Shown piece by piece: positions 16,522-63,112 of a stretch of 64,000 nt of DNA. The notes beneath the pieces were generated by a model, which was given only the letters and a program-made list of their open reading frames with translations, searched no databases and was not told where the DNA came from. Position numbers and translations under genes: made by a program. Source of the DNA: Bosea vaviloviae. Its GTDB lineage: Bacteria > Pseudomonadota > Alphaproteobacteria > Rhizobiales > Beijerinckiaceae. The stretch is from the NCBI RefSeq assembly GCF_001741865.1, contig NZ_CP017148.1, forward strand, positions 275,756 to 339,755, written 5' to 3'. How positions within the stretch are numbered: the first letter of the stretch is position 1; the number at the start of each line of letters is the position of its first letter.

Positions 16522-17751
16522 TCACGCTCGCTGCTTTTCGCGTTTCCGGCTGCCGATCAGTGCCATCAGCATCGGCCCGAGCGAAAACTCTCCGGCCTCG
16601 GCCTTTCGGGTCAGCCCGCGCAGATAGCCGCCGGCGCTGTTGATCGCCTCCCCGCGCTGCAGAATGGCGGCCACGACGATCGCGGCCTCGATTTCGCCGA
16701 GCGCGCTTTGCGCCTCAAACCAGGCGCTGGGACTGATCCCCAGCATTGGCCGAACCACGGCAACAGCGGCTGCGAGATCGCGCCAGTTCGAAATTCCCCC
16801 GCGGCTGTAGTCGATGATGTCCGGACAGGCGTCGAGCACCATCCCCAAGGGATAGGTCCGTTCCGGCATCCTCGCCGGTTCCGGTTCGATCTCGACAATC
16901 GCCCCCCTGCTTTCTGGAAAGCGAGGTTCAAGATCAGTAAGGGAGTCTGGTTTTGAATTCTGTATGTGACGCTCAATATGAGACTCATTGCTGCTCATAT
17001 TCTGGGTTTTGACATGGTCTTCCAACAGGATAAGCACTTCGTCGGCCAGCAGCGAAAGCTCCTCGGCGATCGGCTCGAGTACCAGACGCGTGGCTGAGCG
17101 CGGAATCCGCCCGACGATGCCCCTGTAAAGCCCATGAACCTCCATCCAGTCGGCCGGGCCCTGCCCTCCCCGGCGGGTCGGCACGCCCTCCTCCAGGCCT
17201 GTCGCGATCATCTTGGCGATGTCGCGCCGGCAGATAGTGATGCGCTCACGCACCAGCTTGAGCGCACGGTCCTCAGCCATGACCTCTTCGGCCAAGGCCT
17301 CGAACTCCTCGGCGCGAACAACCAGCGGCGAAAGGTCGAAGCCAAAGGCGAGCTCGATCTCCCCGGCCCTGTCCTTGCGGGCATAGCGCTTGCCGTTGGG
17401 GCTATCGCGGCGGACGATCAGCCCGCAGTCGACCAGGACAGCGAGATGGCGCCGCAATGTCGCCGGCGGCATGCCGTGCGCGCGCAGGCAAAGCTGCTGG
17501 TTCGAGGGGAAGACCACGAGCCCCTCGCCGGTCAGGACGGTCTCGGGATGAAACGTCAGCAGCGCGTTCAGCACAGCCAACGCTCGCTCGGTCACGCCGA
17601 GGCTGTTCTTGGCCGTGCATATCGCGCGGAAGACGTTCCATTTGTGGACCGCTTTTTCCGGCGGCCGCGTTTTCGCGCTCGCCTGGCTTGCCACATGAGC
17701 AAGCGTCAACGATCGCCGCCCGAAGGGCGTCGTCGAGAGTCGTGGTTCCAT
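16522..17751 (-). CDS. repC: Plasmid replication initiator RepC
   Basis: A 409-residue protein of the RepC family, the rate-limiting replication initiator of repABC plasmids. It binds the origin located inside its own gene. The N-terminal winged-helix part (KAVHKWNVFRAICTAKNSLGVTERALAVLNALLTFHPE) is family-typical, as is PSNQQLCLRAHGMPPATLRRHLAVLVDCGLIVRRDSPNGKRYA. The length matches the usual 400-430 residues. It lies 195 bp downstream of repB, and that gap carries the putative antisense RNA on the other strand that would limit repC expression. The DNA at 16925-17035 within the gene is unusually AT-rich. Confidence 0.9.
   Translation of the reverse strand: MEPRLSTTPFGRRSLTLAHVASQASAKTRPPEKAVHKWNVFRAICTAKNSLGVTERALAVLNALLTFHPETVLTGEGLVVFPSNQQLCLRAHGMPPATLRRHLAVLVDCGLIVRRDSPNGKRYARKDRAGEIELAFGFDLSPLVVRAEEFEALAEEVMAEDRALKLVRERITICRRDIAKMIATGLEEGVPTRRGGQGPADWMEVHGLYRGIVGRIPRSATRLVLEPIAEELSLLADEVLILLEDHVKTQNMSSNESHIERHIQNSKPDSLTDLEPRFPESRGAIVEIEPEPARMPERTYPLGMVLDACPDIIDYSRGGISNWRDLAAAVAVVRPMLGISPSAWFEAQSALGEIEAAIVVAAILQRGEAINSAGGYLRGLTRKAEAGEFSLGPMLMALIGSRKREKQRA
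16925..17035. other. oriV: Candidate origin of replication inside repC
   Basis: In repABC plasmids the origin lies within repC, at an AT-rich stretch. Here the AT content rises sharply over about 110 bases of an otherwise GC-rich gene. An 8-bp inverted repeat, AATATGAG at 16975-16982 and CTCATATT at 16994-17001, sits in the middle. This assignment rests on position and base composition only. Confidence 0.5.
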
Positions 17752-17819
17752 GATCCTTGCCTCGTTCAGGGCAAAGAAATCCTGCTCGCCGAAACGGCGC
17801 TAAATCTCTCACGAGACTC

Positions 17820-17904
17820 TTGACGGTGATTCGTGGAAGTGCGATTCTCTCAGTCGCCAAACTTGAAGAGAAGGCTTCCGGAACTCCGTTTCGGGGGCCT
17901 TTTT
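17820..17904 (+). ncRNA. Putative repABC antisense countertranscribed RNA
   Basis: The repB-repC gap holds, on the strand opposite to repC, a promoter-like TTGACG (17820-17825), a 17-bp spacer and GATTCT (17843-17848). A rho-independent terminator follows: AAGGCTTCCG (17871-17880) pairs with CGGGGGCCTT (17892-17901), then a T run. The predicted RNA starts near 17855 and is about 50 nt long, which is the size and place of the ctRNA that represses repC in repABC plasmids. Promoter strength and exact ends are inferred. Confidence 0.65.
17871..17904 (+). terminator. Rho-independent terminator of the antisense RNA
   Basis: A ten-pair stem (eight Watson-Crick pairs and two G-U pairs), an 11-nt loop and a following T-run on the plus strand. 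In known repABC plasmids the equivalent hairpin is both the terminator and the contact loop with the repC leader. Confidence 0.65.
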
Positions 17905-17946
17905 CTTTGCTTCAAACGCTCCTTTTCTGTGTCGAAAATACTCGGT

Positions 17947-18930
17947 TCACGCCTCTGCCCGGCGTTTGAACGCCGCGTAGATCTCGGGAATTGTCTCGAC
18001 GAGATAGGCGCCAAAATCGGCAGCCACCGTTTTGTCGATCGTGACGGTCACCGCTTTCGCATCTTCGCGAATGCTGGCGACACGAAGGCCGTCGTCGGAT
18101 TTCCAGATCGTCGGCCGCACAGCCTTCGGTTTCTTCGGTGCCACCGCATCGAAGATCCTGCTGAAGCGCTCATCTGAACTCAGCGCAGGGAACTGTGCCC
18201 CGCCGGCTGCTTTACGCGCCTTTTCAATTGCAGCCGCTCCGTCGAGCCGCGTCGACAATTCAATCCAACGATCGCGCCCGGCTTTCGGCGCAGGCCCGAT
18301 GGCTTCGATGATGTCATAGGGAATTTTGACGGCGGAGGAGATCAGCCGGGACAATCCTGACTTGTCGACTGACAAAGCCGACATGATCGTCTCGCGATTA
18401 AATCCCCCCTCTTCCAGACGGGCAGCGAAGAGGGCTTTCTCGATGAACGAAAGATCTGTCCGAGCGCTGTTTTCCTGCCCCTGCGCAACGACCAGTTGCT
18501 CGTCCGAGAGCGGTTTGACGATAGCGCGAACAGTTTGGCCGAGCTCCTTCAAAGCTCGCAGCCGGCGCCGGCCATAGGCGATCTGATATCGCCCTTCATG
18601 ATCCGGATGGGGTCGAACCAAGATCGGCACCTGCTGGCCATGCTCACGGATCGATGCGACCAACAGATTATGGTCATCGCCTGCATCTGCCAGACGATCG
18701 GCGATGAGTGATGCGTCAATCAGTTCGGCAGCGAGGTCGAGTACCGCGTGCGCCTTCAGCTGCTCGATCGAACGCGTCACAGCGCCAATGGCGCCACCTC
18801 GCGGCCCAAATGCGCTCGACTGCAGGCCTTGGATCGGCTGTATCGGGCCTGCAGGTTGAGGCGCGGCCGCCGAGTTGCCGGCCGGCAACTTTTCGTCGAG
18901 CAATCCGGCCAAGAGGTTCTTGCGAGCCAT
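17947..18930 (-). CDS. repB: Plasmid partition protein RepB (ParB family)
   Basis: A 327-residue ParB-family protein that binds parS and recruits RepA for segregation. The N-terminal ParB/Srx-like part contains VASIREHGQQVPILVRPHPDHEGRYQIAYGRRRLRALKELG (roughly residues 95-135). The HTH follows (TDLSFIEKALFAARLEEGGFNRETIMSALSVDKSGLSRL), and the C-terminal RepB domain starts near 210. The start at 18930 (MARKN) overlaps the repA stop as TAATG, so repA and repB are coupled. A parS-like palindrome lies inside the 5' part of the gene at 18874-18889. Confidence 0.9.
   Translation of the reverse strand: MARKNLLAGLLDEKLPAGNSAAAPQPAGPIQPIQGLQSSAFGPRGGAIGAVTRSIEQLKAHAVLDLAAELIDASLIADRLADAGDDHNLLVASIREHGQQVPILVRPHPDHEGRYQIAYGRRRLRALKELGQTVRAIVKPLSDEQLVVAQGQENSARTDLSFIEKALFAARLEEGGFNRETIMSALSVDKSGLSRLISSAVKIPYDIIEAIGPAPKAGRDRWIELSTRLDGAAAIEKARKAAGGAQFPALSSDERFSRIFDAVAPKKPKAVRPTIWKSDDGLRVASIREDAKAVTVTIDKTVAADFGAYLVETIPEIYAAFKRRAEA
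18874..18889. other. parS: parS-like 16-bp palindrome inside repB
   Basis: GTTGCCGGCCGGCAAC is a perfect palindrome and fits the repABC parS consensus of the form GTT-N5-GC-N4-AAC. An identical copy lies upstream of repA at 20269-20284. The copy inside repB encodes part of the N-terminal KLPAGN stretch, so the site is kept within coding sequence. Confidence 0.75.
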
Positions 18931-20138
18931 TACCCTCGTCCCCAAGCGGAGAGAACCAGTTGCTCAATCTCGCCGTTGACATTGTCCAACGCCTCGAGCG
19001 CTCGATCATATGTCGAACGGGTGAACTGGTCGCGGCTGACCTCATAGAGGGTTTGCTTGGTGATTCCGGCATCGGAAATGGCCGTGCTCTTGAGCATGGG
19101 GTAATTCAGGACATGTTCTCCGAACATGGAACGCATGAACGACATCATCTGGTTCTGAGGGCCATCGCCAGGCTCATATCGCGTGACGAGATAGCGCATC
19201 CAATCATAACCCATGTTGCCGCCGGCATTGGCGACAACGCCAAGCAGATCAGATGTCATGATGAGAAACTGGCACATCGACATGACGTCGAGCATTTGCG
19301 GATGAACCGTGACGAGAACCGCAGTTGCGCAACACAGGGCCGACAGCGTTAAAAAACCGAGCTGGGGAGGGCAATCGACGACGACAATGTCATAGTCGTC
19401 AGCAACCGACGCCAGAGCCGCGTCCATCCGGGTGAAGAACATCGTCTCCAGCTGCTTCTGGCCCATCAGCGCTTTCGGAGTTTCGTGTTCGAACTCCATC
19501 AGCTCGAGATTGCCCGGAACCAGATCGAGATTGGCGAAGTACGTCTTCCTGATGATCTCTTTCATATCCCGGCGTTCGCCATCATAGCGGATCGCGCCGT
19601 AAAGCGTCTGGTTTTCGCCAACGTCGAATTCCGGCTGGAACCCGTGGAGCGCCGACAGGCTCGCCTGCGGATCGAGATCAATCGCCAGGACGCGGTAGCC
19701 GCGCAGCGCATGATATTGCGCCAGATGGGCCGCGGTCGTCGTCTTACCGCTGCCCCCTTTAAAATTGACCACAGTGATGACCTGAAGATGCTCGTTGCGG
19801 TCGCGGCGCGGAACATATCTGCGATCAGCCTTGCCGCCGATATCAAGAAATTCCCGGAGCGCCTGAATATCCTCGACTGTGTATGATCGCCGTCCCTGCC
19901 GGCCGACATCGACCTGCGGGCCCTTGCCCTCGAGAGACAGCCGCCGCAGGTAGCCGTCATTGATGCCAATCAGCTTTGCAGCTTCGATCGACGAAAAGCG
20001 CCGGAGCGTCTTGCGGGCTTCTGGCGGAAACAGCTGGAGCCTATGAGCTTGCAATTTCGATGAGAGTTCGCGCGCATGGGCGCCGACCAACTCGTGAATC
20101 GCCTTCTTGGGCTGGGCAAGATTGAAGGCAGGTTCCAC
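18930..20138 (-). CDS. repA: Plasmid partition protein RepA (ParA family ATPase)
   Basis: A 402-residue type Ia ParA ATPase. An N-terminal HTH-containing extension (RRFSSIEAAKLIGINDGYLRRLSLEGKGPQVD) is followed by the Walker A motif KGGSGKTT at 127-134. Further elements are DLDPQASLS and VVVDCPPQLGFLT. The protein drives plasmid partition and represses its own operon. The order repA-repB-repC, with TAATG coupling to repB, is the standard repABC layout. Confidence 0.9.
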   Translation of the reverse strand: MEPAFNLAQPKKAIHELVGAHARELSSKLQAHRLQLFPPEARKTLRRFSSIEAAKLIGINDGYLRRLSLEGKGPQVDVGRQGRRSYTVEDIQALREFLDIGGKADRRYVPRRDRNEHLQVITVVNFKGGSGKTTTAAHLAQYHALRGYRVLAIDLDPQASLSALHGFQPEFDVGENQTLYGAIRYDGERRDMKEIIRKTYFANLDLVPGNLELMEFEHETPKALMGQKQLETMFFTRMDAALASVADDYDIVVVDCPPQLGFLTLSALCCATAVLVTVHPQMLDVMSMCQFLIMTSDLLGVVANAGGNMGYDWMRYLVTRYEPGDGPQNQMMSFMRSMFGEHVLNYPMLKSTAISDAGITKQTLYEVSRDQFTRSTYDRALEALDNVNGEIEQLVLSAWGRG

Positions 20139-20494
20139 AGCGAACTCGCGTAAACACGGAAAATGGCGCTCATTGCGCCGATTGCCGTGACAAGATCACC
20201 CGATTCCCTGAGTCTGGCAAGCGATTAAGGGTTAACGAGTGGTTAAAGCAGCGCCCGCCCCTAGCAAAGTTGCCGGCCGGCAACTCGCGCGGCTTGCGCG
20301 CTGGCGCGCCGCCGATGGGTAGCAAGACGTGCCCGGCGGCAAACCCACCGCGTTGTCGAGCGACCGGCCACCTCACGGCCGTGCGGCATACCCTCCCACC
20401 GGGATCTTAAATAGGCGACGCGATGTCGAGGCTTTCGCTGGTCGTGTGGTCAGTGGGAGGAATTTATTGCAGCAGAGGCCATGGTCCTATGGGA
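20139..20494. promoter_or_regulatory. repABC upstream region with a parS-like site
   Basis: This non-coding stretch lies between the repA start and the luxR stop. It contains the parS-like palindrome at 20269-20284 and an AT-rich segment (GATTAAGGGTTAACGAG) just on the repA side. I see no clear tra-box-like element here, so a direct link from LuxR to repABC transcription is not supported by the sequence. Confidence 0.5.
20269..20284. other. parS: parS-like 16-bp palindrome upstream of repA
   Basis: A perfect GTTGCCGGCCGGCAAC palindrome, identical to the copy inside repB at 18874-18889. The position upstream of repA is a common place for repABC centromere sites, where RepB binds and where RepA/RepB autorepression may also act. 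Confidence 0.75.
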
Positions 20495-21217
20495 TTAGAA
20501 AATGGTGCGTGCCCGCATTGCGATGGCGACAGCTTGCGGCAAGGTGTCAGCACCGAGTTTCACCCTAGCGTTGTCGAGATGAAACTTCACCGCCCGCTTA
20601 GTTACGCTCATAATGACGGCCATCTCGTCCATGGATTTGCCGCGAGCGGCCCATTCCAGGCACTCACGCTCCCGCTGCGTGATCCGGCCCGAGGTTGTGG
20701 TCGAGGCCACAGGCAGCTTGGCATCGACGTGCGCGTGAAATGTCAGCCCTATCAACTGGATGATATCGTTTGCCTCCGTGACCATCCTCCCATGCGCTGA
20801 ACTGACGTCATCGACCGCCAAGGTGAAGGCGGCGAATCGATTGAAGCCGCCCGTAATTGCGACCGAGACGCCATGGCGGATACCAAACTCGTCTGCGTCG
20901 TCAAAGAGCCGCTTCTGGGCGCGCAGTGGAAACCGGCAAGCAGCTTCGCGGGTCCACTGCATCGTGGAACGCCCACTTCGGGCAAAGGCGACGACGGGAT
21001 CGACGTCTTGATATCTTTCCGTGAAATAATGCTCACTCCAGCGTTTCGGATAAGACGAGATCAAAACCGGATCAGCCTCGCCAAAGCCGAGATAGGCGAA
21101 ATACCGGAAGCCCATGCTCTCGGCAGCGCGTTGGCCGACGCGCCCGAACTCTGCTTCCACCGTTGATGAGTGCAAGCCGTCGACCAGTTCCTGATAGGCG
21201 AATTCTACGAATTTCAT
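20495..21217 (-). CDS. LuxR-family quorum-sensing regulator (TraR-like)
   Basis: A 240-residue LuxR-type regulator. The N-terminal autoinducer-binding domain carries conserved pocket residues: W60 and Y64 in KRWSEHYF, D73-P74 in DVDPV and W88. The C-terminal GerE-type HTH occupies about 179-240 (ITQRERECLEWAARGKS ... VKFHLDNARVKLGA). The ATG at 21217 follows GGAGG. It is divergent from the luxI gene at 21413, and an 18-bp palindrome at 21335-21352 between them is a likely binding site. By position beside repABC and the virB genes it probably couples conjugation to cell density. Confidence 0.9.
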   Translation of the reverse strand: MKFVEFAYQELVDGLHSSTVEAEFGRVGQRAAESMGFRYFAYLGFGEADPVLISSYPKRWSEHYFTERYQDVDPVVAFARSGRSTMQWTREAACRFPLRAQKRLFDDADEFGIRHGVSVAITGGFNRFAAFTLAVDDVSSAHGRMVTEANDIIQLIGLTFHAHVDAKLPVASTTTSGRITQRERECLEWAARGKSMDEMAVIMSVTKRAVKFHLDNARVKLGADTLPQAVAIAMRARTIF

Positions 21218-21334
21218 GGGGCCTCCGAAGTTGGGGCGCCGGTTTCACGCGCCTGAGAATCCTGTTCGTTGAATGCAAGAGGCCTGCCGGAAAGATGAGC
21301 TGAGATCACGGCCGCAACTTCCGAGTGAATCCGC

Positions 21335-21352
21335 CCTGTCACATCTGACAGG
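21335..21352. promoter_or_regulatory. tra/lux-box-like 18-bp operator
   Basis: CCTGTCA-CATC-TGACAGG is an inverted repeat with exact 7-bp arms and an 18-bp total length, like tra boxes. It lies between the divergent luxR and luxI genes, 60 bp upstream of the luxI start, where an activator site would sit near -35. Confidence 0.7.
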
Positions 21353-21412
21353 TTCTACGAAGAGCCGTACCTGCTTCATTGGCTTACAGATCAACGCGGT
21401 GGGGAGTGGGAC

Positions 21413-22033
21413 ATGCAGGTCATCGAGATCAGCCGCGCCGTATATGGCGCCAACTTCAAACTTCTGATGGGCATGCATCGCCTGCGGCGGAAGGTCTTCA
21501 AGGATCGTCTGGACTGGTCAGTGTCGACAACGGGCGATCTCGAAATCGATCAGTATGACACGCTGGGCGCCAGCTATCTTGTCATCGTTGATAACGGCGA
21601 CGTGCTGGGTTGCGTGAGGTTGTTGCCGACGACCGGTCCGAACATGCTGGCCGACACTTTTCCAGAACTGCTGGACGGGACAACAGCGCCGCGCTCCGAC
21701 AAAATAGCCGAGAGTTCGCGTTTTTGCGTTGATACCGAGCTGTCTGACTCGACCAGCGATGGGGGACTGCGCCGCGCGACACTGATGCTGCTCGCAGCGA
21801 TGCGCGAATGGGGCGAGGCGAGGGGATTAGCGTCCATCGCAACGGTCACCGATTTGCGTATGGAACGTATCCTGCGGCGCGCCAACTGGCTACTCACGCG
21901 CTTGGGCTCTCCTCGGAGGATTGGCTCGACCATGGCAGTAGCGGGGCTGCTCCCAATCCAGGAAGCCCCCTCCAAATGCTGGACTTCTGCCGTCGCTCGC
22001 GAGCAGGACCATCACATGGGGCAGACGGCATGA
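21413..22033 (+). CDS. LuxI-family acyl-homoserine-lactone synthase
   Basis: A 206-residue autoinducer synthase. Conserved family residues are visible: R in HRLRRKVFKDRLDW, the DQYD acidic stretch, R in GCVRLLPT and the E in AESSRFCV. It makes an acyl-homoserine lactone from S-adenosylmethionine and an acyl-ACP. The C-terminal 25 residues, after GLLPIQEAPSK, extend beyond the usual domain. The ATG at 21413 has GGGGAGTGGG upstream. Its stop overlaps the ATG of the next small gene (ATGA at 22030-22033). Confidence 0.9.
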   Translation: MQVIEISRAVYGANFKLLMGMHRLRRKVFKDRLDWSVSTTGDLEIDQYDTLGASYLVIVDNGDVLGCVRLLPTTGPNMLADTFPELLDGTTAPRSDKIAESSRFCVDTELSDSTSDGGLRRATLMLLAAMREWGEARGLASIATVTDLRMERILRRANWLLTRLGSPRRIGSTMAVAGLLPIQEAPSKCWTSAVAREQDHHMGQTA

Positions 22034-54535: not shown

Positions 54536-57448
54536 TTGACTAATCAGCTAGCGTTGCAGCAGCGTCCCGCGGTGGTCGACCCCGTACAACTCAATCGCAT
54601 TGAGGCGGTCCACCGTGGCTTCCTTTTCCAGCATCTGTACGCCGCCCGCAGCCTGCTGCTTGCCCCCGGAACAGACGTCATCTCGGTCGTCGTCGAGAGC
54701 GACGAAGATGTCGAGGTAGTGCGCCCGGGCGGTCGCACCTATGTGCAGGTTAAGTGCCGAGGCGCCGTCCTCGGCTTCAGCGAGATCGAAGACGCGCTCG
54801 CGAGGTTCGACGCTTACCGCGCTCTCCATGCCCAAGGCGAGCGAACGGGTCGCGCCGCGTTCGTCATCGCCACAAACGCGGCGCTCACGCCGTCCCTTGT
54901 GAAGAAGATGTCGAGCGCAGACTGGCCGAAGGACGTGCGGATCGACCACCCAAGTGCGCTCATACCCTCAGACCCAGTCACGCCAGTACCTGCAGCGACC
55001 TTGCATGACGCCTTCGTCACCTGCCGCGACCTTGCGGCCTTGCTCCCATTCGCGATGTTGGCGCCGGAGACTCTCGTCTGGAAGTTGGCGGGGGCCGTGA
55101 TGCTGGCGGCCGCCGGCGCCGTGCCGCGAGTCGACCACGCCTTCCAGATCCATGAACTCGCCGCGCTCTTTGAGCAGCTCGTGATCCAACTGCAGGATCT
55201 ACCCACACCGCCGCCGCTCTATCGGCCCCAGACAAACGAGCCGCCGCTGGTTACGGACGCGCCAGTGCGGTTGGTCACCGGGTACTCGGGCGCAGGGAAG
55301 ACTTCGTGGGTGTCCCAGGCTGCGGTACATGCGCCCGGTGTCATCACTTACTTTGACGCTCGGGACACGCCGGGCACGGCCCTCGCCTCTAGTCTCGCCC
55401 GCGAGTTCGCTGCCCGCCTGTTCGGTAACGAGCCCGGCGGCCTCGGCCAGGTTCTACTCCCGGGCGCCTCTGGGTTGGAGATCCTGAACATGATCGGCCG
55501 ACAAGCCTCGGCCCGAAGCCTGGCGGCGACAGTGGTGGTCGACAACGTCCAGAGTCCCCCCGCCGCCGACGTCAGGGCTCTTGTTCAGGCCGCCCCAGGA
55601 ATTCGGTTCGTACTCCTCGGTCAGCCTGGGACGAACGTGCAGGCCTTATCGGCACTTATCCCAGCTGTACCTGAGCACCTGGGCGGATGGTCACCCGACA
55701 CAATCGCGGCAGAAATCGCAGCCCGGGGCTGCCGGGCCAACGCTGCCGCATCGCAAGCCCTACTCGACCTTACCGGCGGTCTGCCGCTGTACGTTCAGAA
55801 CGCTGTTGGGCTTGCGGCGGCGGAGAACGCCGGCTCTATTGCCGACTTCTGCGCCAGCGTAAGTGCCCGCACGCATTCCGTGGAGACCGCGCAGGAGTTG
55901 ATCCTTACCAGGGTCGTCGAGGGACTGCCGGAGGAGACGCGGCGAGCAGTGGCCGTCCTTAGCCTCGTCGATGTGCCTCTGCTGCGCCCGGAGGTCGTCG
56001 ATCTCTTGCAGGGCGCGCTGGGTACCGACGACGTGGAAGCTGCCGGACACCTGCGGCGCCTTAGGACCGCGGGGGTAGTCGAGACATACGGCGGCGACAG
56101 ACTGAAAGTCCACGACGCGGTTCGCTTGCCTGCGGGTGTCCAACTCATCGGACTCGGGCAACAATTCGGCGATGGCGCGCGCAGAAGCCTCCGAGACGTG
56201 CTTACGAAGTCACTGGTCGCGCGATGGGACCACCGGAAGCTGGCCTTACATTTAAGAAACCTAGCTGCGACCGGCGACATCAAAACCCTTGTTCAGGTCG
56301 GAACGGAAGAGTTGTTCCATGAACTCGGCCTATGGGCTGAGATCAAGCCACACCTGGAAGCCGCCGCCTCTGAAGCTACCGATCCGGAAGATCGCTTCTG
56401 GGCCCTCGACGGCATTGTGTTCAACGATATGCGGGTTGGAGAAGACGGCGGCACTCTCGGAAATATCGAGAGAATGAAGCGACTTGTGTCTGAGCATGGG
56501 CTGGGCGTTAGAGAGCGCATGGCGGTAGGCATGAAGGAGATGAACGTCCTGGCCCGCGAGGGCGATGCGGACGGCATGTCTCGCGTCATGGCGAGCGTGG
56601 CTGCGGAGCTCAATCCCGAGCCGTCCTATCAAAGGATATTCCGGTACAACGCCGCGGTGGCTCTATTCCACGTCGGCGAGGCAGAGGTCGCCGCATCACG
56701 GTCGCTGGAGATTGCAAATGAGTACTACACGCTGCTGGGCCTGACGCCGAAAATGGTAATGGGGCGCAATGCGCCCGAGTTGCGCCCCCTGCTCAAGTAT
56801 ACCGACAGCCTTCCAGATGACCTCAAGCATCTAGCGGATTGTCTCGACCTACACGCCAAGGCAACCGATGCCGCCGGCGGCCGGGCTCCGTTCGCCCGCA
56901 TCCATGCCCTCAAATTTTACGATCTCGCGCGATCGCCAGAGTCGCTCATGCGCGTCGGCCAGGACTTGGCCGACGAGTTTATTCGGCACAACGATTACAC
57001 CGGAGCTCGACAAATACTGGAGAACAGCCTTCTCCCACTGTTGCATAATCTGCGGCTAGCTGCCTACATCATTCCTGTTCGCTCCCAACACGCCGTGATC
57101 CTGGCATACTGCGGCGACTTCGGCGCCGCCGAGACGGAGATGGAGAGGCTGGCTCCGTACGAGCCCGGCCTGACCGATCAGGGGCTTCAAGAACTTCGTG
57201 GGCAGCGGCGGCTCATCGCGGATCTCCGCCAACACGGCGCTCCTCCGCAGTTCGTGCCACCGCCCGGCGCACCGACCACGGTGGAGCAGATGAGAAAAAT
57301 GTTGGCGAGCGGACAGACCCCCACTGCCACAGAATCTGGGTTTCCCCCGCCCTGGAGGCACGTGCGCAACCTTCGCAAGGTCGGGCGAAACGACCGTTGC
57401 CCCTGCGGATCGGGGAAGAAGTACAAGAAGTGTCACGGGAACGTCTGA
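54536..57448 (+). CDS. Nuclease-STAND NTPase defence-like protein with C-terminal SEC-C motif
   Basis: A 970-residue protein starting at TTG 54536. Residues about 22-110 resemble a DUF4297/Cap4-type restriction-endonuclease-fold domain: E54-S-D-E-D58 followed by Y-V-Q71-V-K73. A P-loop NTPase follows, with Walker A GYSGAGKT at 250-257 and Walker B VVVD337. The middle region (about 400-900) looks like an array of helical repeats. The last 20 residues are a SEC-C zinc motif (CPCGSGKKYKKCH). This layout (nuclease, NTPase, repeat sensor) is that of Avs-like antiviral STAND proteins, although the SEC-C end is unusual. Confidence 0.7.
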   Translation: MTNQLALQQRPAVVDPVQLNRIEAVHRGFLFQHLYAARSLLLAPGTDVISVVVESDEDVEVVRPGGRTYVQVKCRGAVLGFSEIEDALARFDAYRALHAQGERTGRAAFVIATNAALTPSLVKKMSSADWPKDVRIDHPSALIPSDPVTPVPAATLHDAFVTCRDLAALLPFAMLAPETLVWKLAGAVMLAAAGAVPRVDHAFQIHELAALFEQLVIQLQDLPTPPPLYRPQTNEPPLVTDAPVRLVTGYSGAGKTSWVSQAAVHAPGVITYFDARDTPGTALASSLAREFAARLFGNEPGGLGQVLLPGASGLEILNMIGRQASARSLAATVVVDNVQSPPAADVRALVQAAPGIRFVLLGQPGTNVQALSALIPAVPEHLGGWSPDTIAAEIAARGCRANAAASQALLDLTGGLPLYVQNAVGLAAAENAGSIADFCASVSARTHSVETAQELILTRVVEGLPEETRRAVAVLSLVDVPLLRPEVVDLLQGALGTDDVEAAGHLRRLRTAGVVETYGGDRLKVHDAVRLPAGVQLIGLGQQFGDGARRSLRDVLTKSLVARWDHRKLALHLRNLAATGDIKTLVQVGTEELFHELGLWAEIKPHLEAAASEATDPEDRFWALDGIVFNDMRVGEDGGTLGNIERMKRLVSEHGLGVRERMAVGMKEMNVLAREGDADGMSRVMASVAAELNPEPSYQRIFRYNAAVALFHVGEAEVAASRSLEIANEYYTLLGLTPKMVMGRNAPELRPLLKYTDSLPDDLKHLADCLDLHAKATDAAGGRAPFARIHALKFYDLARSPESLMRVGQDLADEFIRHNDYTGARQILENSLLPLLHNLRLAAYIIPVRSQHAVILAYCGDFGAAETEMERLAPYEPGLTDQGLQELRGQRRLIADLRQHGAPPQFVPPPGAPTTVEQMRKMLASGQTPTATESGFPPPWRHVRNLRKVGRNDRCPCGSGKKYKKCHGNV

Positions 57449-57564
57449 CCGACTTAAAGGTCGATCTCCAGCACGGAAACGGCTCAGGACGCTGAAGGGT
57501 TTTTCGGTCTCCTTTGCCGGAGCGAACCGGGGCATTCTTTCGATCAGGAAAGGACCCCACATTC

Positions 57565-58314
57565 ATGACGACCCAGGATCTATTGAACAGGATTGCCGAC
57601 CTTGGCGAGCGGCCACGCAACACGCCGTCGGCTCCGCCAGTTGAGGTGGTTGCCTTTGTCGTGCGTTGGAACCGTGGACTGCGTCAGTGGAAAACTTCCA
57701 CGCTTGCTGATTTTGCGCGGGTTTCGGTTTCCACGGTGGAGCGCGTCGAGCGCGGAGAGCGCGTGAGCGTGGAGGCGCTAGATCGCATCGCACAGGCCTT
57801 TGGATATGAAGCTGGGTATTTCACGGCGCCGCGCCTGCCGCTCCCGCCGGAAGAAGCGGCCGCGGCAATGACAGAAACCTATTCGAACTTGGAACCTGTC
57901 GCGGTCGCGCCGATGAAATCGCATCGCGCGGTGCGCGAAGCGGCACGGTGCGATGCGTATCTCATCCATCGTCCGGGCGTGCCGGACACCTATGACGACG
58001 ATATCGCCAACCTCGCCGAATGGCTCGATCTCGCCTCGTTCGTTCTGTCGGAGCTGATCGCCGCGGGGCCCTCGATGGAGGGGCGGAGGCGCGAACTTTA
58101 TAACGGGATTCTCGCTAGCGTTGGCGAGCTCGAACGTCGCGGCCTGACGATCCTGTCCGGCGTGATGTCCGCCCCCCAAGATCGGTTGCCGGATTGGAAG
58201 GTGGCCGTGGTTTCGATCACGCCGAGGCTTACTGATCCCGGCGCGGCCAAGCGGCGTCATCTGATGGTGGACCGCCGTGTCGTGGCCCTCCCGGCCCGGT
58301 CTTCAGCCACCTAG
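57565..58314 (+). CDS. XRE-family regulator with a C-terminal domain
   Basis: A 249-residue protein from ATG 57565. The HTH is at about 35-75 (LRQWKTSTLADFARVSVSTVERVERGERVSVEALDRIAQAFG). A C-terminal helical domain (DDDIANLAEWLDLASFVLSELIAAGPSMEGRRRELYNGIL) has no name I recognise. It precedes the QueC-like operon by 150 bp and may control it or the previous gene. There is no overlap with neighbours. Confidence 0.7.
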   Translation: MTTQDLLNRIADLGERPRNTPSAPPVEVVAFVVRWNRGLRQWKTSTLADFARVSVSTVERVERGERVSVEALDRIAQAFGYEAGYFTAPRLPLPPEEAAAAMTETYSNLEPVAVAPMKSHRAVREAARCDAYLIHRPGVPDTYDDDIANLAEWLDLASFVLSELIAAGPSMEGRRRELYNGILASVGELERRGLTILSGVMSAPQDRLPDWKVAVVSITPRLTDPGAAKRRHLMVDRRVVALPARSSAT

Positions 58315-58414: not shown

Positions 58415-58453
58415 TTGACATTGTCCGATTTTATTTCTATATTTCTGACATTG
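58415..58453 (+). promoter_or_regulatory. Strong promoter with flanking TGACATTG repeats
   Basis: TTGACA at 58415-58420, a 17-bp spacer and TATATT at 58438-58443 form a near-consensus sigma-70-type promoter for the operon starting at 58465. The sequence TGACATTG occurs at 58416-58423 and again at 58446-58453, 30 bp apart on one face of the helix. The repeats overlap the -35 element and the start site, as a repressor site would. Confidence 0.7.
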
Positions 58454-58464
58454 GAGATCGGGCG

Positions 58465-59034
58465 ATGAGCGACGGACCGCATAGAAGCCTGCCGATGCGA
58501 CGGCCCTGGAAAGAGGTCGCCAAGCGAGGAGACCAGCGCACTTACGACGCTGCGCAGGTCACCGAAGCCGCGACCTATGCCCTTGCCAGCGATTTCAAGA
58601 ACGAAGTCTCGGGAGCGTTGATCAGCGCGCTGAAGAACGTCTTTAACGGCCGGGAGAACTCGTTGCGACTTCCCGAGATCGCACTCGATCAACTGGAGGC
58701 TGCCAAACCGTTGGCAGCCGGCTCGGTATTCGGCGCGAATGCCGTGTCCTGGTGCGTCCAGCTCGTTCACGAAGGCCGGATGGACCCGGAAGCGCTTTAC
58801 GAGGCCGTAGGACTCGCGGCCAAAGAACGCGGCTTCGCGGCAACGCGTCAGGTTGAGGAGCATTTCCTCCGCAAATCCAGCCAGCGACGTGCCGATGGCG
58901 TCAGCGCGAGATTGGGCGATGCGATATCCGCAATGTCGGAGGGACGTCTGGGCACGATCTTGATCGTGCCGGCGCCGAGCCCACGTCGTGCGCCGAGGAA
59001 GCGAACCGATATCAACGACGGAGTGCCGCTCTGA
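58465..59034 (+). CDS. Unknown small protein, first gene of the QueC-like operon
   Basis: A 189-residue protein from ATG 58465. The N-terminus reads SLPMRRPWKEVAKRG, a helical middle follows, and a flexible basic tail ends it (SPRRAPRKRTD). No domain is recognised. It is not clearly similar to any known protein. Its stop overlaps the start of the QueC-like gene (TGATG), and the two are coupled. By position it could be a substrate or partner of that enzyme. Confidence 0.6.
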   Translation: MSDGPHRSLPMRRPWKEVAKRGDQRTYDAAQVTEAATYALASDFKNEVSGALISALKNVFNGRENSLRLPEIALDQLEAAKPLAAGSVFGANAVSWCVQLVHEGRMDPEALYEAVGLAAKERGFAATRQVEEHFLRKSSQRRADGVSARLGDAISAMSEGRLGTILIVPAPSPRRAPRKRTDINDGVPL

Positions 59035-60416
59035 TGAACGCTCCGGCCCGATTTCTCGACCTCAACCAATTGGCAGTCGATGTGATCGAAGGCGGCACCC
59101 CAGTGCGCCGAGGTTATGTCGCTTGCTCGCTAGGGACGAACATCACCTTCTCCACGAAGATTCTCGAAAGCTTTTCGTCGACCAACTGGCAGGCAGTCGT
59201 CTACGACGCGCTCGTCGTCGCGGCGTCAGTGGAGTTCTGCGACCGAAGTCTGGCTCGCAGCGCGCTGAACTGGGGCCGTCGCTTCGAGGTCCGGATAGCG
59301 GTTCATGAACCCGAACGGTGGTCGTCACGCCCAGTGATGCGATCTCTGGTCGACGCACTGAATCTGCTCACCGGCGACGATTGGCACTTCGAATTTCATG
59401 CGCGGCGCACGCCGGCGGACACGCCCGCGCAGAACCGAATGGAATTCCCCTCGGATGCTGACGCGGTCATCGCCTACAGCGAGGGCATGGATTCGCGTGC
59501 GGTGGCTGGGCTTGAGGGCAAGCGCCTCGGCAGCCGCCTCGTGCGGGTTCGCGTAGGCACGAAACGACCTGACATGCCGAAGAAGGAGCGCGCGCGGCTG
59601 CCGTTCACCGCCGTGCCGTACGAGGTCAGGCTCGACGGCAACAACGCGGAAACGACCGCGCGTAGTCGCGGTTTCAAGTTCGCTCTGGTCGCCGCGATAG
59701 GCGCGTATCTGATCGATGCTCCGACCGTGATCGTGCCAGAGAGCGGACAGGGCGCATTGGCTCCGGCAATTCTGCCCGTCGGCCAGGGTTATGCGGATCA
59801 CCGCAACAACCCCGTTTTCACGGCGCTGATGGAGAAGTTCGTCAAAGCCCTGCTCGGACACGGGGTTCGTTACAGATACCCGCGCTTGTGGATGACGAAG
59901 GGGGAGACGCTGCGCGAATATATCGACAACTGCGGACCCGAGTCCTCGTCGTGGGCATCGACGCGTTCGTGCTGGCAGCAGTCGCGACAAGCTTCCGTCG
60001 CGGGCACCAGGCGCCAATGTGGCGTTTGCGCTGCCTGCATGCTTCGTCGTCTGAGCGTCCACGCCGCCGGCGAGGCCGAAGCGAATGAAACCTACGTGTG
60101 GGAGAGCCTGAACGCGCCGACGTTTGAAGTAGGGGCCAACGCCGACTTTCAACACGTCACGGCAGCTCTGAGCGAATATGCCCTTGCGGGGGTGTTGCAC
60201 TTCGAGCACTTCGCATCATTCCGCGATACCCCTCAGCACGAACTCCTCAAACGCCGCGCTCAAAACGAACTGGCACGATCCTTGGGAGAACCAGCGGAGG
60301 TGGTTTCCAAAAGCCTGGACCGGCTACTGCAACAACATGCCACGGAATGGCGGGCATTCACGAACGGGCTCGACGAAAACTCGTTCGTGAGGAGATGGAT
60401 AGATACGGCACCATGA
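59034..60416 (+). CDS. QueC-like (7-cyano-7-deazaguanine synthase-related) protein
   Basis: A 460-residue protein with a PP-loop ATP-pyrophosphatase fold of the QueC kind. The loop is YSEGMDS at 148-154, where QueC has SGGMDS. A C-terminal zinc site consists of C313, then C329-x2-C332-x2-C335. The N-terminal 130 residues are extra compared with QueC. QueC-like proteins of this kind occur in defence operons (QatC of Qat, Cap9 of type IV CBASS), and this gene has similar defence-like neighbours. It overlaps the next gene by four bases (ATGA). Confidence 0.75.
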   Translation: MNAPARFLDLNQLAVDVIEGGTPVRRGYVACSLGTNITFSTKILESFSSTNWQAVVYDALVVAASVEFCDRSLARSALNWGRRFEVRIAVHEPERWSSRPVMRSLVDALNLLTGDDWHFEFHARRTPADTPAQNRMEFPSDADAVIAYSEGMDSRAVAGLEGKRLGSRLVRVRVGTKRPDMPKKERARLPFTAVPYEVRLDGNNAETTARSRGFKFALVAAIGAYLIDAPTVIVPESGQGALAPAILPVGQGYADHRNNPVFTALMEKFVKALLGHGVRYRYPRLWMTKGETLREYIDNCGPESSSWASTRSCWQQSRQASVAGTRRQCGVCAACMLRRLSVHAAGEAEANETYVWESLNAPTFEVGANADFQHVTAALSEYALAGVLHFEHFASFRDTPQHELLKRRAQNELARSLGEPAEVVSKSLDRLLQQHATEWRAFTNGLDENSFVRRWIDTAP

Positions 60417-61588
60417 TCAAATCAGCGCACGAATTAAGCCCCGCTGAATTGGGCGAGAGATTGAAAGTCGCTCGGGAGACCGCAAACGTTAAGCAGGAAG
60501 CCGCCGCGAAGTCGGCGGGGATCGCGCGGACGACGCTTATCTCCATTGAAAAGGGTCAGCGGCCTGCGCGGATCGAAGAGCTTCAGGCGCTGAGCCGCTG
60601 CTACGGCGTATCGATCAATTCGCTACTCCGCCGTGAGGCGGTCCATGTGGATCTCGTGCCGCGTTTCAGGTCGCTCCCCGAGACGGGAGATACCGGAATT
60701 GATCAGGCTGCTCGAACGCTCAACGATCTCGTTCGGGCGGAGGTCGAGCTTGAGAACATCCTGGGTGTTAAAAGGGCACACAATTACCCCGTCGAGAAAT
60801 CCATTCTGCCTGGAGATGTGCGAACCCAGGCTGAGCATGATGCCCAGAATCTGCGCAACTGGCTGGGGCTTGGCGAAGGGCCAGTCCAGGATCTGTTCAC
60901 TCTGATGGAGCTTCAGCTCGGTGTGCGGATCTATAGTCGCAAGCTCGATCCGAAGGTTTCGGGCCTGTTTGCCTTTGATGACGCCGTTGGCGCATGCATC
61001 CTCATTAATTCCAGCCATCGGAAAGATCGCCGCAATCAGACGGGCGGGCACGAGCTTGGGCATTTTACCGCAACCCGGCGGCTGCCGGAGGTCTATCAGG
61101 ACGAAAAATACGAAAACTCCCGCGAGGAGAGATACGCAAATGCGTTTGGTAGGGCATTTCTTACGCCCGCCCGCGCGGTGATGGAAAAATTCAAGGAGCT
61201 CACGACCGGATCGAGCCACCTCACGCGCAGGCACATCATCTTACTCGCGCATTTCTTCGGCGTCTCTCGGCAGGCCATGGTGATGCGCCTCGAGGAGCTC
61301 GAGCTGACAAAAAAAGGGACCTGGGATTGGTTTCGAGACAACGACGGCATCAGCGATGAACAGGCGCGCCAAGTGCTCGGGTCCGCGGCCTATGATGCGT
61401 CCGTGGTCGACAGCCCACTGTCGTCGCGGCTGTTTTTGCTCGCGATCGAAGCCTGGAAGAAAGATCTCATTAGCGAAGGCCAACTGGCGGAGATGCTGAA
61501 GCTGGGACGCACGCAGGTTCGCGAGCTGCTCGACGAAGCAGCGGCGGAAGAGGACGAGGCGGATGACCTTTTCAAGCTGCCTCACTGA
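60413..61588 (+). CDS. XRE-ImmA/IrrE fusion (HTH plus zinc protease domain)
   Basis: A 391-residue protein. The HTH spans about residues 10-70 (ELGERLKVARETANVKQEAAAKSAGIARTTLISIEKGQRPARIEEL). The C-terminal ImmA/IrrE domain carries the zinc motif H213-E-x2-H217 (GGHELGHF). Such proteins sense a signal and cleave a partner repressor or act as antitoxin. The gene overlaps the QueC-like gene (ATGA) and the PIN gene (26 bases). It most likely regulates or inactivates the PIN protein. Confidence 0.85.
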   Translation: MIKSAHELSPAELGERLKVARETANVKQEAAAKSAGIARTTLISIEKGQRPARIEELQALSRCYGVSINSLLRREAVHVDLVPRFRSLPETGDTGIDQAARTLNDLVRAEVELENILGVKRAHNYPVEKSILPGDVRTQAEHDAQNLRNWLGLGEGPVQDLFTLMELQLGVRIYSRKLDPKVSGLFAFDDAVGACILINSSHRKDRRNQTGGHELGHFTATRRLPEVYQDEKYENSREERYANAFGRAFLTPARAVMEKFKELTTGSSHLTRRHIILLAHFFGVSRQAMVMRLEELELTKKGTWDWFRDNDGISDEQARQVLGSAAYDASVVDSPLSSRLFLLAIEAWKKDLISEGQLAEMLKLGRTQVRELLDEAAAEEDEADDLFKLPH

Positions 61589-62201
61589 GGAGGACAGTAC
61601 GCTCGCTCTCGACTCCAGCGTCGTAATCAACCTCTTGGCCACGCAGCGAGCTCGCCCCATCCTTCGAGCTCTGTCCCGGCCCATCCTGATCACCGACAAT
61701 GTGGTTCGAGAAATCGACCAGGGCGCGACCAACGGACGTGCGGAAATCGATCTGCTGAGGCAGATGATAGTAGATGAAACCGTACGCATTATCGAACTCA
61801 GCGAACAGGCATTGCACACCTTCTTCGAGCTGGTCGCTGGCAGTGCCGCGGAGTCCCTTGGTGACGGCGAGGCAGCAACGCTTGCCTTCGCCTCTGCCAA
61901 TCACTGTTCAGCGGCTATCGACGAGAAGAAGGCTACGAGGCTGTCCGCTGCCCGATTCACAAGCCTCCGGCTCGCCACGACCGTCGATATTCTCGCGCAC
62001 GACGCCGTGCGGTCGGCGATCGGACAAGGCGCATTGGCGGAAGCCGCTTTGCAAGCGCTTCAGCAGGCGCGAATGCAAGTGCGGGAGCATCAGTTTGGTT
62101 GGGTGCTAGATCTCATCGGTCCCGATAATGTTGCGACCTGCACAAGCCTGCGGCGCCTCGCAAACCGCCACGCAAATGGCTTGAAAGCCAAAACCGCCTG
62201 A
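61563..62201 (+). CDS. PIN-domain protein
   Basis: A 212-residue PIN-like nuclease. Acidic residues are D17 in ALDSSVVINLL, E50 in VVREID, D in SLGDGEAATLAFA and D in AIDEKKA. These make up the PIN active-site set, so RNase activity is plausible. The C-terminal 60 residues are helical. It overlaps the ImmA/IrrE gene by 26 bases, and that pairing is seen in toxin-antitoxin-like modules. It is the last gene of the four-gene operon. Confidence 0.75.
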   Translation: MTFSSCLTEEDSTLALDSSVVINLLATQRARPILRALSRPILITDNVVREIDQGATNGRAEIDLLRQMIVDETVRIIELSEQALHTFFELVAGSAAESLGDGEAATLAFASANHCSAAIDEKKATRLSAARFTSLRLATTVDILAHDAVRSAIGQGALAEAALQALQQARMQVREHQFGWVLDLIGPDNVATCTSLRRLANRHANGLKAKTA

Positions 62202-62229: not shown

Positions 62230-63112
62230 CTAAGGCGTCCGGCGGCCTCGACGCCCGGCAATGATCGCGAGCATGTTGACAACAGATAATGTTCCCTCCG
62301 CGCATAGAGCGGCGGTTCGGAAATCGGCAAGCCGCTTGTGCTGAAGCGCGAGAGCAAGTCGTACGGCAGCCTTTGCGTGCGCCCGCGCTTCCTCGTTGCT
62401 AGAGCCCTTAAGTTCGGTTTCGAAGATCGCCTCCAGCATGCGCTTGGCGTCGGTATCACTCGGCGTCTTATCGTCGACAAGCGGATGGCGAGCCGGGTCA
62501 TAAACCTCCTGCGCCACCGAGATGAGCACTTCCCGGCAGAGGAGGCCAACGCCTTGGTAGTGTTCTTCGGTGACTGCGGCGTCGAGACGGGATCGCATTT
62601 CCTGGCTCTGCCGATCGACCTTCTGCCAGCCAGTGGGTTCTTCGAAAACCACGGCCCTGCGGGCCGACTGAGCTGAGAAAATCGGCTTGCCTGAGACTAC
62701 CCTGGCAGGAACGATCTGGAAACCGTCGACAGCCAAGGCTTCGTTGTAGATGCCGACGAGCGTATCCACCATCTCGATGTCAGGGCGCACGATCGGATGA
62801 ACGGTCTCACACAGGAAGCGCAAGAAATCCGCGTCCGAGGCATGCAGGAGATTGAACCGGCCGGTCGTAGAAGACCCACCCACTGTCCCAATCGTCCGCA
62901 TTACGCACCGTGTGCTGGTAAATGTCGCCGGCCGCATCCTTATATCGATGATCGAATGAGGGAAGCTTCGACAGATCGTAAAGTCGCGAGAGAAACTCAT
63001 CGTCCTGGAGGCGACCCGCCCAGCTGATATTGGCGACGCTGAAGGTGTCGATGATCGTTCGGCGCGTTATCTCTGAAATTTGGTTGGGTGCTTCACCTGC
63101 CGTTTGATTCAT
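62230..63112 (-). pseudogene. AbiJ-NTD3-type protein, interrupted by a frameshift
   Basis: The gene starts at ATG 63112 (MNQTAGEAPNQISEI) and reads as the AbiJ N-terminal domain 3 family: RTIIDTFSVANISWAGRLQDDEFLSRLYDL, then DIYQHTVRN and DDWDSGWVFYD. Near 62859-62866 the frame changes by one base: the next expected residues (RFNLLHASDADFLRFLCETVHPIVRPD) lie in another frame, which then runs to 62230. An extra C in the run ACCGG would explain it. It is probably inactive, unless the frameshift is a sequencing error. Full-length protein would be about 294 residues. Confidence 0.7.

Follow-up and report, generated by a model that had tools for sequence, protein, structure and literature searches.

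We analysed a window of 64,000 nucleotides from Bosea vaviloviae (contig NZ_CP017148.1) and describe here a cassette of four overlapping genes that encodes a small helical protein, a QueC-like enzyme, an XRE-ImmA/IrrE protein and a PIN-domain protein. The window is the end of the second contig of the assembly (positions 275756–339755 of 339,755 bases), and all positions below are counted from its first letter. The cassette and the block in front of it consist of the following features.

58415..58456, + strand: promoter/operator-like block, a conserved upstream motif with an inferred promoter role
58465..59034, + strand: gene 1, 189 amino acids (aa), all-helical partner protein, proposed N-terminally modified substrate
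59034..60416, + strand: gene 2, 460 aa, QueC-like enzyme of QatC architecture
60404..61588, + strand: gene 3, 394 aa from the ATG at 60404, XRE helix-turn-helix (HTH) and ImmA/IrrE (M78) zinc protease
61563..62201, + strand: gene 4, 212 aa, PIN-domain nuclease

Family searches and comparison with relatives bore out what the initial annotation had proposed for positions 58465–62201, namely the coordinates and order of four overlapping same-strand genes and their QueC-like, XRE-ImmA and PIN identities. Position 59034 is common to the gene 1 stop and the gene 2 start, gene 3 begins 13 bases inside the end of gene 2 (a longer version could start from the ATG at 60347), and gene 4 begins 26 bases inside the end of gene 3.

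A search for this gene order in other genomes, which the initial annotation had suggested, found it in identical form at 32 of 32 distinct loci, the window included, two of which carry a damaged gene (gene 1 frameshifted in locus L009, gene 2 split by a frameshift in L015); with 32 distinct loci, the recurrence is far beyond chance. The set comprises 21 relatives in named records (L002–L022), found by tblastn and inspection of the reading frames and having all four genes in order, and 11/11 non-host family members from our class and order genome samples (L025, L026, L035–L043), whose 1.5 kb flanks leave the PIN gene only partly visible. L035 and L003 are one locus (100% over 4374 bases) and were counted once; the only other whole-cassette pairs at ≥90% are the close relatives L007/L008 and L012/L013. 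In L022, gene 1 was recognised by its position and GTG start only.

The genes also keep company at the level of genomes. Of the 397 genomes of the order sample, ten have the QueC-like gene (E ≤ 1e-25), and it is precisely these ten that have the XRE-ImmA gene (E ≤ 1e-60); in the class sample 11/385 genomes have a QueC-like match at E ≤ 1e-10, three belonging to the cassette family and eight being QatC-type or sister-type (see below). Among plasmids, 24 records matched over at least 80% of gene 2 (18 were opened), and the ImmA gene (E ≤ 1e-40) was found in the same 24 records; the PIN gene (E ≤ 1e-5) was found in 25, the extra one being the Microvirga plasmid NZ_CP069355. Thus, the four genes, which the initial annotation had treated as one system, are inseparable in the sampled genomes and plasmids except for one orphan PIN gene (L054, 5953–6591), whose surroundings, read for 6 kb to each side, show none of the other three genes. 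The window gene 1 used alone as a query recovers only 15 of the carrier plasmid records because gene 1 diverges fast. Pairwise distances of the four proteins are correlated (Spearman 0.76–0.91, 19 loci; L009, L015 and L022 left out), although part of this correlation would arise from common descent alone. The relatives of genes 1 and 2 come, where sources are named, from alpha-, beta- and gammaproteobacteria, and bear, where named at all, the name "hypothetical protein" or 7-cyano-7-deazaguanine synthase/QueC family protein. The NT-26 plasmid NZ_FO082821.1 (the record of L021) is matched in two places by each of the QueC-like, ImmA and PIN queries and may carry two cassette copies.

Of the 24 carrier plasmid records, 13 are typed as conjugative and 6 as mobilizable. 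By our own count, clear defence-type neighbours (AbiE, Shedu, Lit, VapBC, restriction genes) occur in 10/14 annotated plasmid neighbourhoods (L006, L007, L008, L011, L012, L014, L016, L020, L021, L022); the Fic protein of L005 and the reverse transcriptase of L013 were left out of this count as less clear cases, and L015 and L019 have none.

Gene 2 only just exceeds the cut-off of the Pfam QueC family (24 bits against 22) and stays far below that of the NCBIfam QatC family (110.9 bits against 280), while PADLOC QatC matches at 1e-29. Its predicted fold matches that of QatC over the full length, including the N- and C-terminal extensions, and outside the family it is most closely related to QatC proteins; in the tree, the family is a clade separate from QatC and the sister type together (FastTree supports 0.80 and 0.77). 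In the window the motifs are the PP-loop SEGMDS (residues 149–154), YADHR (253–257) and the zinc site CGVCAAC (329–335). The altered PP-loop noticed in the initial annotation is real and family-wide, with S[DE]GxDS in 137 of 144 aligned relatives and S[NK]GxDS in the other 7, and the zinc site is retained as stated there (CGxCA[AN]C in 144/144). The base-recognition motif YxD is kept as well (D255 in 144/144, Y253 in 140/144), and a comparison of profiles with canonical QueC (HHalign probability 95%) supports its register. Ten QatC-type outgroup proteins (8 QatC, 2 of the sister type) have SGGxDS throughout, together with T-x-T in nine and T-x-S in one (L029); the equation of T-x-T with T278/T280 of QatC is our own reading of the alignment. 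Given the YxD motif, the ligand of gene 2 would be expected to be a guanine-like base. Besides gene 2, the host genome encodes a canonical QueC, on the other contig.

No Pfam or NCBIfam family matches gene 1. It begins with MSDGPHRSLPMRRPWKEV, that is, with MSDGPH, and ends in NDGVPL. Among the best 120 of 341 relatives, M[ST]DGP[HF] stands at the annotated start in 102 and at the annotated or an internal start in 115, the other 5 starting late. In the alignment of these 120 relatives with 31 loci, neither trimmed nor chosen by motif, the motif occupies the first six columns in 145 of 151 rows. Across 18 representatives of less than 60% identity, D3 and G4 are kept in 18, P5 and S/T2 in 17, W or Y15 in 18 and P10 in 12, and mean conservation falls from 0.77 over residues 1–10 to 0.39 from residue 21 onward. 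The N-terminus is the best conserved part of gene 1, although a C-terminal [DN][DEQ]G is also kept. The AlphaFold2 model is all-helical with nine helices (mean predicted local distance difference test score 89.8) and has no match in the PDB at E ≤ 0.001 (Foldseek).

Gene 3 matches Pfam HTH_3 (2.1e-12) and Peptidase_M78 (3.1e-16), and both the window copy and 32/32 relative rows examined carry HExxH (L003 and L035 being one locus). The window copy of gene 4 has no Pfam match and is hit by the PADLOC candidate family PDC-S70 (1.6e-8), while 7 of the 18 family members that were scanned match Pfam PIN (best 5.2e-6). Residues D17, E50, D101, E103 and D120, which we take to be the acidic set of PIN nucleases, are invariant in the 18-member alignment. 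The assignment of gene 4 as a PIN protein is based on these matches of its relatives and on the retained acidic residues.

In the block upstream of gene 1, a −35 box TTGACA (58415–58420) lies within a TGACAwTGTC near-palindrome (window sequence TTGACATTGTCCGA at 58415–58428) and is followed, after a 17-base spacer, by the −10-like TATATT (58438–58443), a further TGACAT-type half-site TCTGACAT (58444–58451) and GGAG (58453–58456). A TTGAC[AT]..TGTC-type motif is found 47–59 bases before the gene 1 start in 31/32 loci, with 0.055/32 expected in mononucleotide shuffles; it should be noted that the pattern was written after these upstream regions had been viewed, and that some of the 32 regions belong to close relatives and are not all independent. 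Beyond the motif, further upstream, the sequence differs between loci as judged by eye. In the host genome, the exact 14-mer is unique, and three more places match it with one mismatch. We infer that the block is a promoter whose −35 box is overlapped by an XRE operator.

The arrangement differs from Qat and from type IV CBASS (cyclic oligonucleotide-based antiphage signalling system), as the initial annotation had held, and judged by its sequences the cassette is neither. With qatABCD it shares a QueC-like enzyme of about 450 residues whose extended fold is that of QatC, and an all-helical partner whose gene lies immediately upstream and whose extreme N-terminus is conserved, with a Trp further on; QatB has Pro16 and Trp18 according to PMC13279940, compared with mostly P10 and W15 in gene 1. 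It differs in having XRE-ImmA and PIN proteins instead of the QatA KAP-family ATPase and the QatD TatD nuclease, in a partner that reads M[ST]DGP rather than MGTS and has no sequence relation to QatB, and in YxDYR and S[DE]GxDS in place of the invariant Thr pair (T278/T280) and SGGxDS. There is no qatA or qatD in the cassette, no KAP or TatD protein among the 8 window proteins scanned, and no TatD annotation in the 14 annotated plasmid neighbourhoods; AAA/ATP-binding proteins of unspecified kind occur outside the cassette in L005, L007, L019, L020, L021 and L022.

Type IV CBASS (Cap9-CdnD) resembles the cassette in the YxD pair of Cap9 and in a conserved partner N-terminus, the MGGS of the CD-NTase (cGAS/DncV-like nucleotidyltransferase), to which Cap9 conjugates 7-deazaguanine. 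The cassette, in contrast, has no CD-NTase and no Cap10, its acceptor would be Ser/Thr and not Gly, and its enzyme has 460 aa with extensions compared with about 185 residues without them in Cap9. Neither a CD-NTase nor a gene resembling tRNA-guanine transglycosylase (TGT) was found among the 8 window proteins scanned. Canonical QueC has the same PP-loop ATPase fold, zinc site and YxD motif, but at about 220 aa it is half as long, has SGGxDS where gene 2 has SEGMDS, and is linked to queD/queE rather than to this operon; no queD or queE was found among the neighbouring window genes scanned. Gene 3, with its HTH and M78 zinc protease, is like CapH/CapP and other XRE and ImmA/IrrE regulators (PADLOC RmrA, CapP), although here it is a single polypeptide within a four-gene unit with a QueC-like enzyme.

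A sister QueC-like pair, for which we found no description, lies on the minus strand in L030 (745–3352), L055 (5256–7863) and L056 (345–2991). Its partner of about 259 aa contains MGHIRLG in 113 of the best 120 relatives (at the annotated start in 109), and its enzyme (615–617 aa) is QueC-like, is extended by a long segment at the C-terminus and has a base-recognition motif of the QatC type. As in the cassette, the partner is encoded upstream with a strictly conserved N-terminus and has LPxxxxW at the same positions (9–15; L030, L055); unlike the cassette, the sister type has Gly at position 2, the QatC-type motif and SGGxDS, and no cassette protease or PIN gene stands beside it at the two loci read. 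A profile match of gene 1 residues 8–47 to the MGHIRLG family (HHalign probability 28%) is suggestive only.

The initial annotation had called the gene combination new and suggested that it could be an undescribed defence system in which the QueC-like enzyme modifies the small partner and the protease-PIN pair acts as effector. The four-gene combination was indeed not found in the literature searched, which left most subscription papers and bioRxiv outside, but the central idea of a QueC-like enzyme and its partner is already in print: action on a partner N-terminus is published for CBASS (PMC11996544) and proposed for Qat (PMC13279940). The cassette shares with this class of QueC-driven modification systems the conserved partner N-terminus, the putative acceptor being Ser/Thr and not Gly.

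Overall, our best reading is that the cassette is one more QueC-based system for the modification of a protein at its N-terminus, in which the acceptor is Ser/Thr and the output a protease and an RNase, and that it forms a self-contained, mobile anti-phage unit, to which we assign a probability of roughly 0.55. Its parts can be graded separately. That gene 2 modifies the N-terminus of gene 1 appears likely on account of the conserved N-terminus, which backs such a modification, together with the fold shared with QatC, the YxD pair and the parallels in print. That the cassette serves defence is a reasonable expectation because of its mobility, its patchy occurrence (10/397) and its defence-type neighbours. 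The modification probably supplies control over the protease and the RNA-cutting toxin.

The mechanism that we propose builds on the observed gene order, co-occurrence, motifs, intact catalytic residues and operator conservation and on predicted folds. Gene 2 would most plausibly bind gene 1 and, once the Met of gene 1 has been removed, activate a carboxylated base with ATP and join it to the N-terminal Ser/Thr thus exposed on the [ST]DGP[HF] tail, in the way that Cap9 acts on Gly2 of the CD-NTase; the YxD pair would favour a 7-deazaguanine- or guanine-like ligand over the unknown ligand of QatC. The modified gene 1–gene 2 complex, or its change on infection, could perhaps be the sensor or licence. 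XRE-ImmA would plausibly repress the cassette through the TGACAwTGTC operator and keep the PIN nuclease in check until a trigger switches its zinc protease, so that the operon is derepressed and the PIN RNase freed, whose RNA cleavage would then halt the cell or the phage. In what order the modified partner, the protease and the nuclease would act is a matter of conjecture.

The supply of the base in the carriers is uneven. A strong canonical QueC is present in 8 of 12 carrier genomes, the host included, and absent from 4; QueD exceeds the cut-off in 3, falls short of it with E < 1e-20 in 3 more, is weak in 2 (the host among them) and absent from 4; QueE is found in 6 with one alphaproteobacterial query, and the TIGR03365 model gives the same 6 and one 22-bit match in G627. 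TGT is present in 11/12. Two of the genomes are of lower quality (G754 only 83% complete, G100 10% contaminated). On host contig C1 (L087, 5245–6610) the canonical QueC, in a genome without detectable QueE, stands beside a membrane protein that is presumably queuosine-precursor transporter-like; this is possibly a salvage arrangement.

Several points weigh against our interpretation. Six of the 12 carriers, the host included, have no detectable QueE or proper QueD and may lack 7-carboxy-7-deazaguanine (CDG), so the supply of CDG is unexplained; salvage, another guanine-like acid or an outside source are candidate answers to the question of the ligand. The PP-loop of gene 2 has an acid (or Asn/Lys) where glycine is usual. 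Residue 2 of gene 1 is Ser/Thr, as opposed to the Gly needed by QatB and the CD-NTase, and gene 1 shows no sequence relation to seven QatB proteins (HHalign probability 0.2%). In the divergent L022, gene 1 reads MRDGIW, with Arg at residue 2, and loss of Met is not expected. Finally, toxin-antitoxin genes are also found in islands of this kind, and the count of 10/14 neighbourhoods stands without a background rate.

A rival view is that the cassette is a plasmid-maintenance or stress toxin-antitoxin unit with no anti-phage role, the PIN protein being the toxin, XRE-ImmA the antitoxin or repressor and the gene 1–gene 2 pair a metabolic input. XRE and PIN proteins form a toxin-antitoxin-like pair, the plasmid carriage and typing given above would suit maintenance, and VapBC and AbiE are among the neighbours in several regions. 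Such a unit seems unlikely to us: the XRE-ImmA and QueC-like genes never part in the 397 genomes and the plasmid collection at the thresholds used, which makes the QueC-like pair more than a loosely attached extra, and the orphan Microvirga PIN gene has no cassette XRE-ImmA within the 6 kb read on each side. Somewhat less probable still is a divergent Qat subtype, in which a QatBC-like core works as in qatABCD and the protease and PIN merely replace qatA and qatD. The full QatC fold of gene 2 and its nearest outside relatives fit this view, and QatBC alone is enough for defence against some phages, according to PMC13279940; what speaks against it is that gene 1 is unrelated to QatB by profile and has no MGTS, that both gene 2 motifs depart from those of QatC, and that the gene 2 family is a clade of its own.

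We consider it very improbable that the cassette is a nucleobase-metabolism operon in which gene 2 produces a small molecule of the 7-deazaguanine type under regulation by the other genes. The retained YxD motif and zinc site and the four carriers without canonical QueC would agree with such a role, but the spread is patchy, the operon contains a PIN nuclease, the enzyme has QatC-type extensions, and eight of the carriers already have QueC. Also against it, no annotated queD or queE occurs in the 14 annotated plasmid neighbourhoods, leaving aside the radical SAM proteins in L016 and L019 (about 460 and 380 aa). QatC itself reportedly does not rescue queuosine formation in E. coli lacking queC. 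A variant of our own interpretation, to which we give little credence, makes the modification itself the sensing step: carriers without CDG would obtain the base acid (7-deazaguanine carboxylate or similar) only from the invader or the surroundings, and gene 1 tagged by conjugation of the nucleobase to its N-terminal Ser/Thr would license the ImmA protease to release the PIN RNase.

If the reading as a QueC-based anti-phage unit is true, the cassette would join type IV CBASS and Qat as a further QueC-based immune unit and would connect the tagging of a protein with a nucleobase to an RNase under protease control. Its enzyme can be regarded as a natural hybrid of QatC architecture and the QueC/Cap9 base-recognition pair, and because it should bind a guanine-like base, the question of which ligand QatC attaches becomes easier to test through it. 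The N-terminal motif of gene 1 and the operator are simple search handles.

As for the setting in the window, repABC-like reading frames (16.5–20.1 kb) lie with LuxR-type and autoinducer-synthase-like frames at 16522–22033, the names being read from translations; the contig is therefore probably a repABC plasmid. Upstream of the cassette, at 54536–57448 (+ strand), a 970-aa protein matches AAA weakly, has a SEC-C motif at its C-terminus and matches PADLOC LmuA weakly at its N-terminus; it looks like a separate nuclease/ATPase-type defence gene. An HTH protein (57514–58314, + strand) directly precedes the cassette promoter, in a place where the annotated plasmid regions show other kinds of genes, and just downstream of the cassette a protein with an AbiJ_NTD3 domain is encoded on the opposite strand (62230–63000, − strand).

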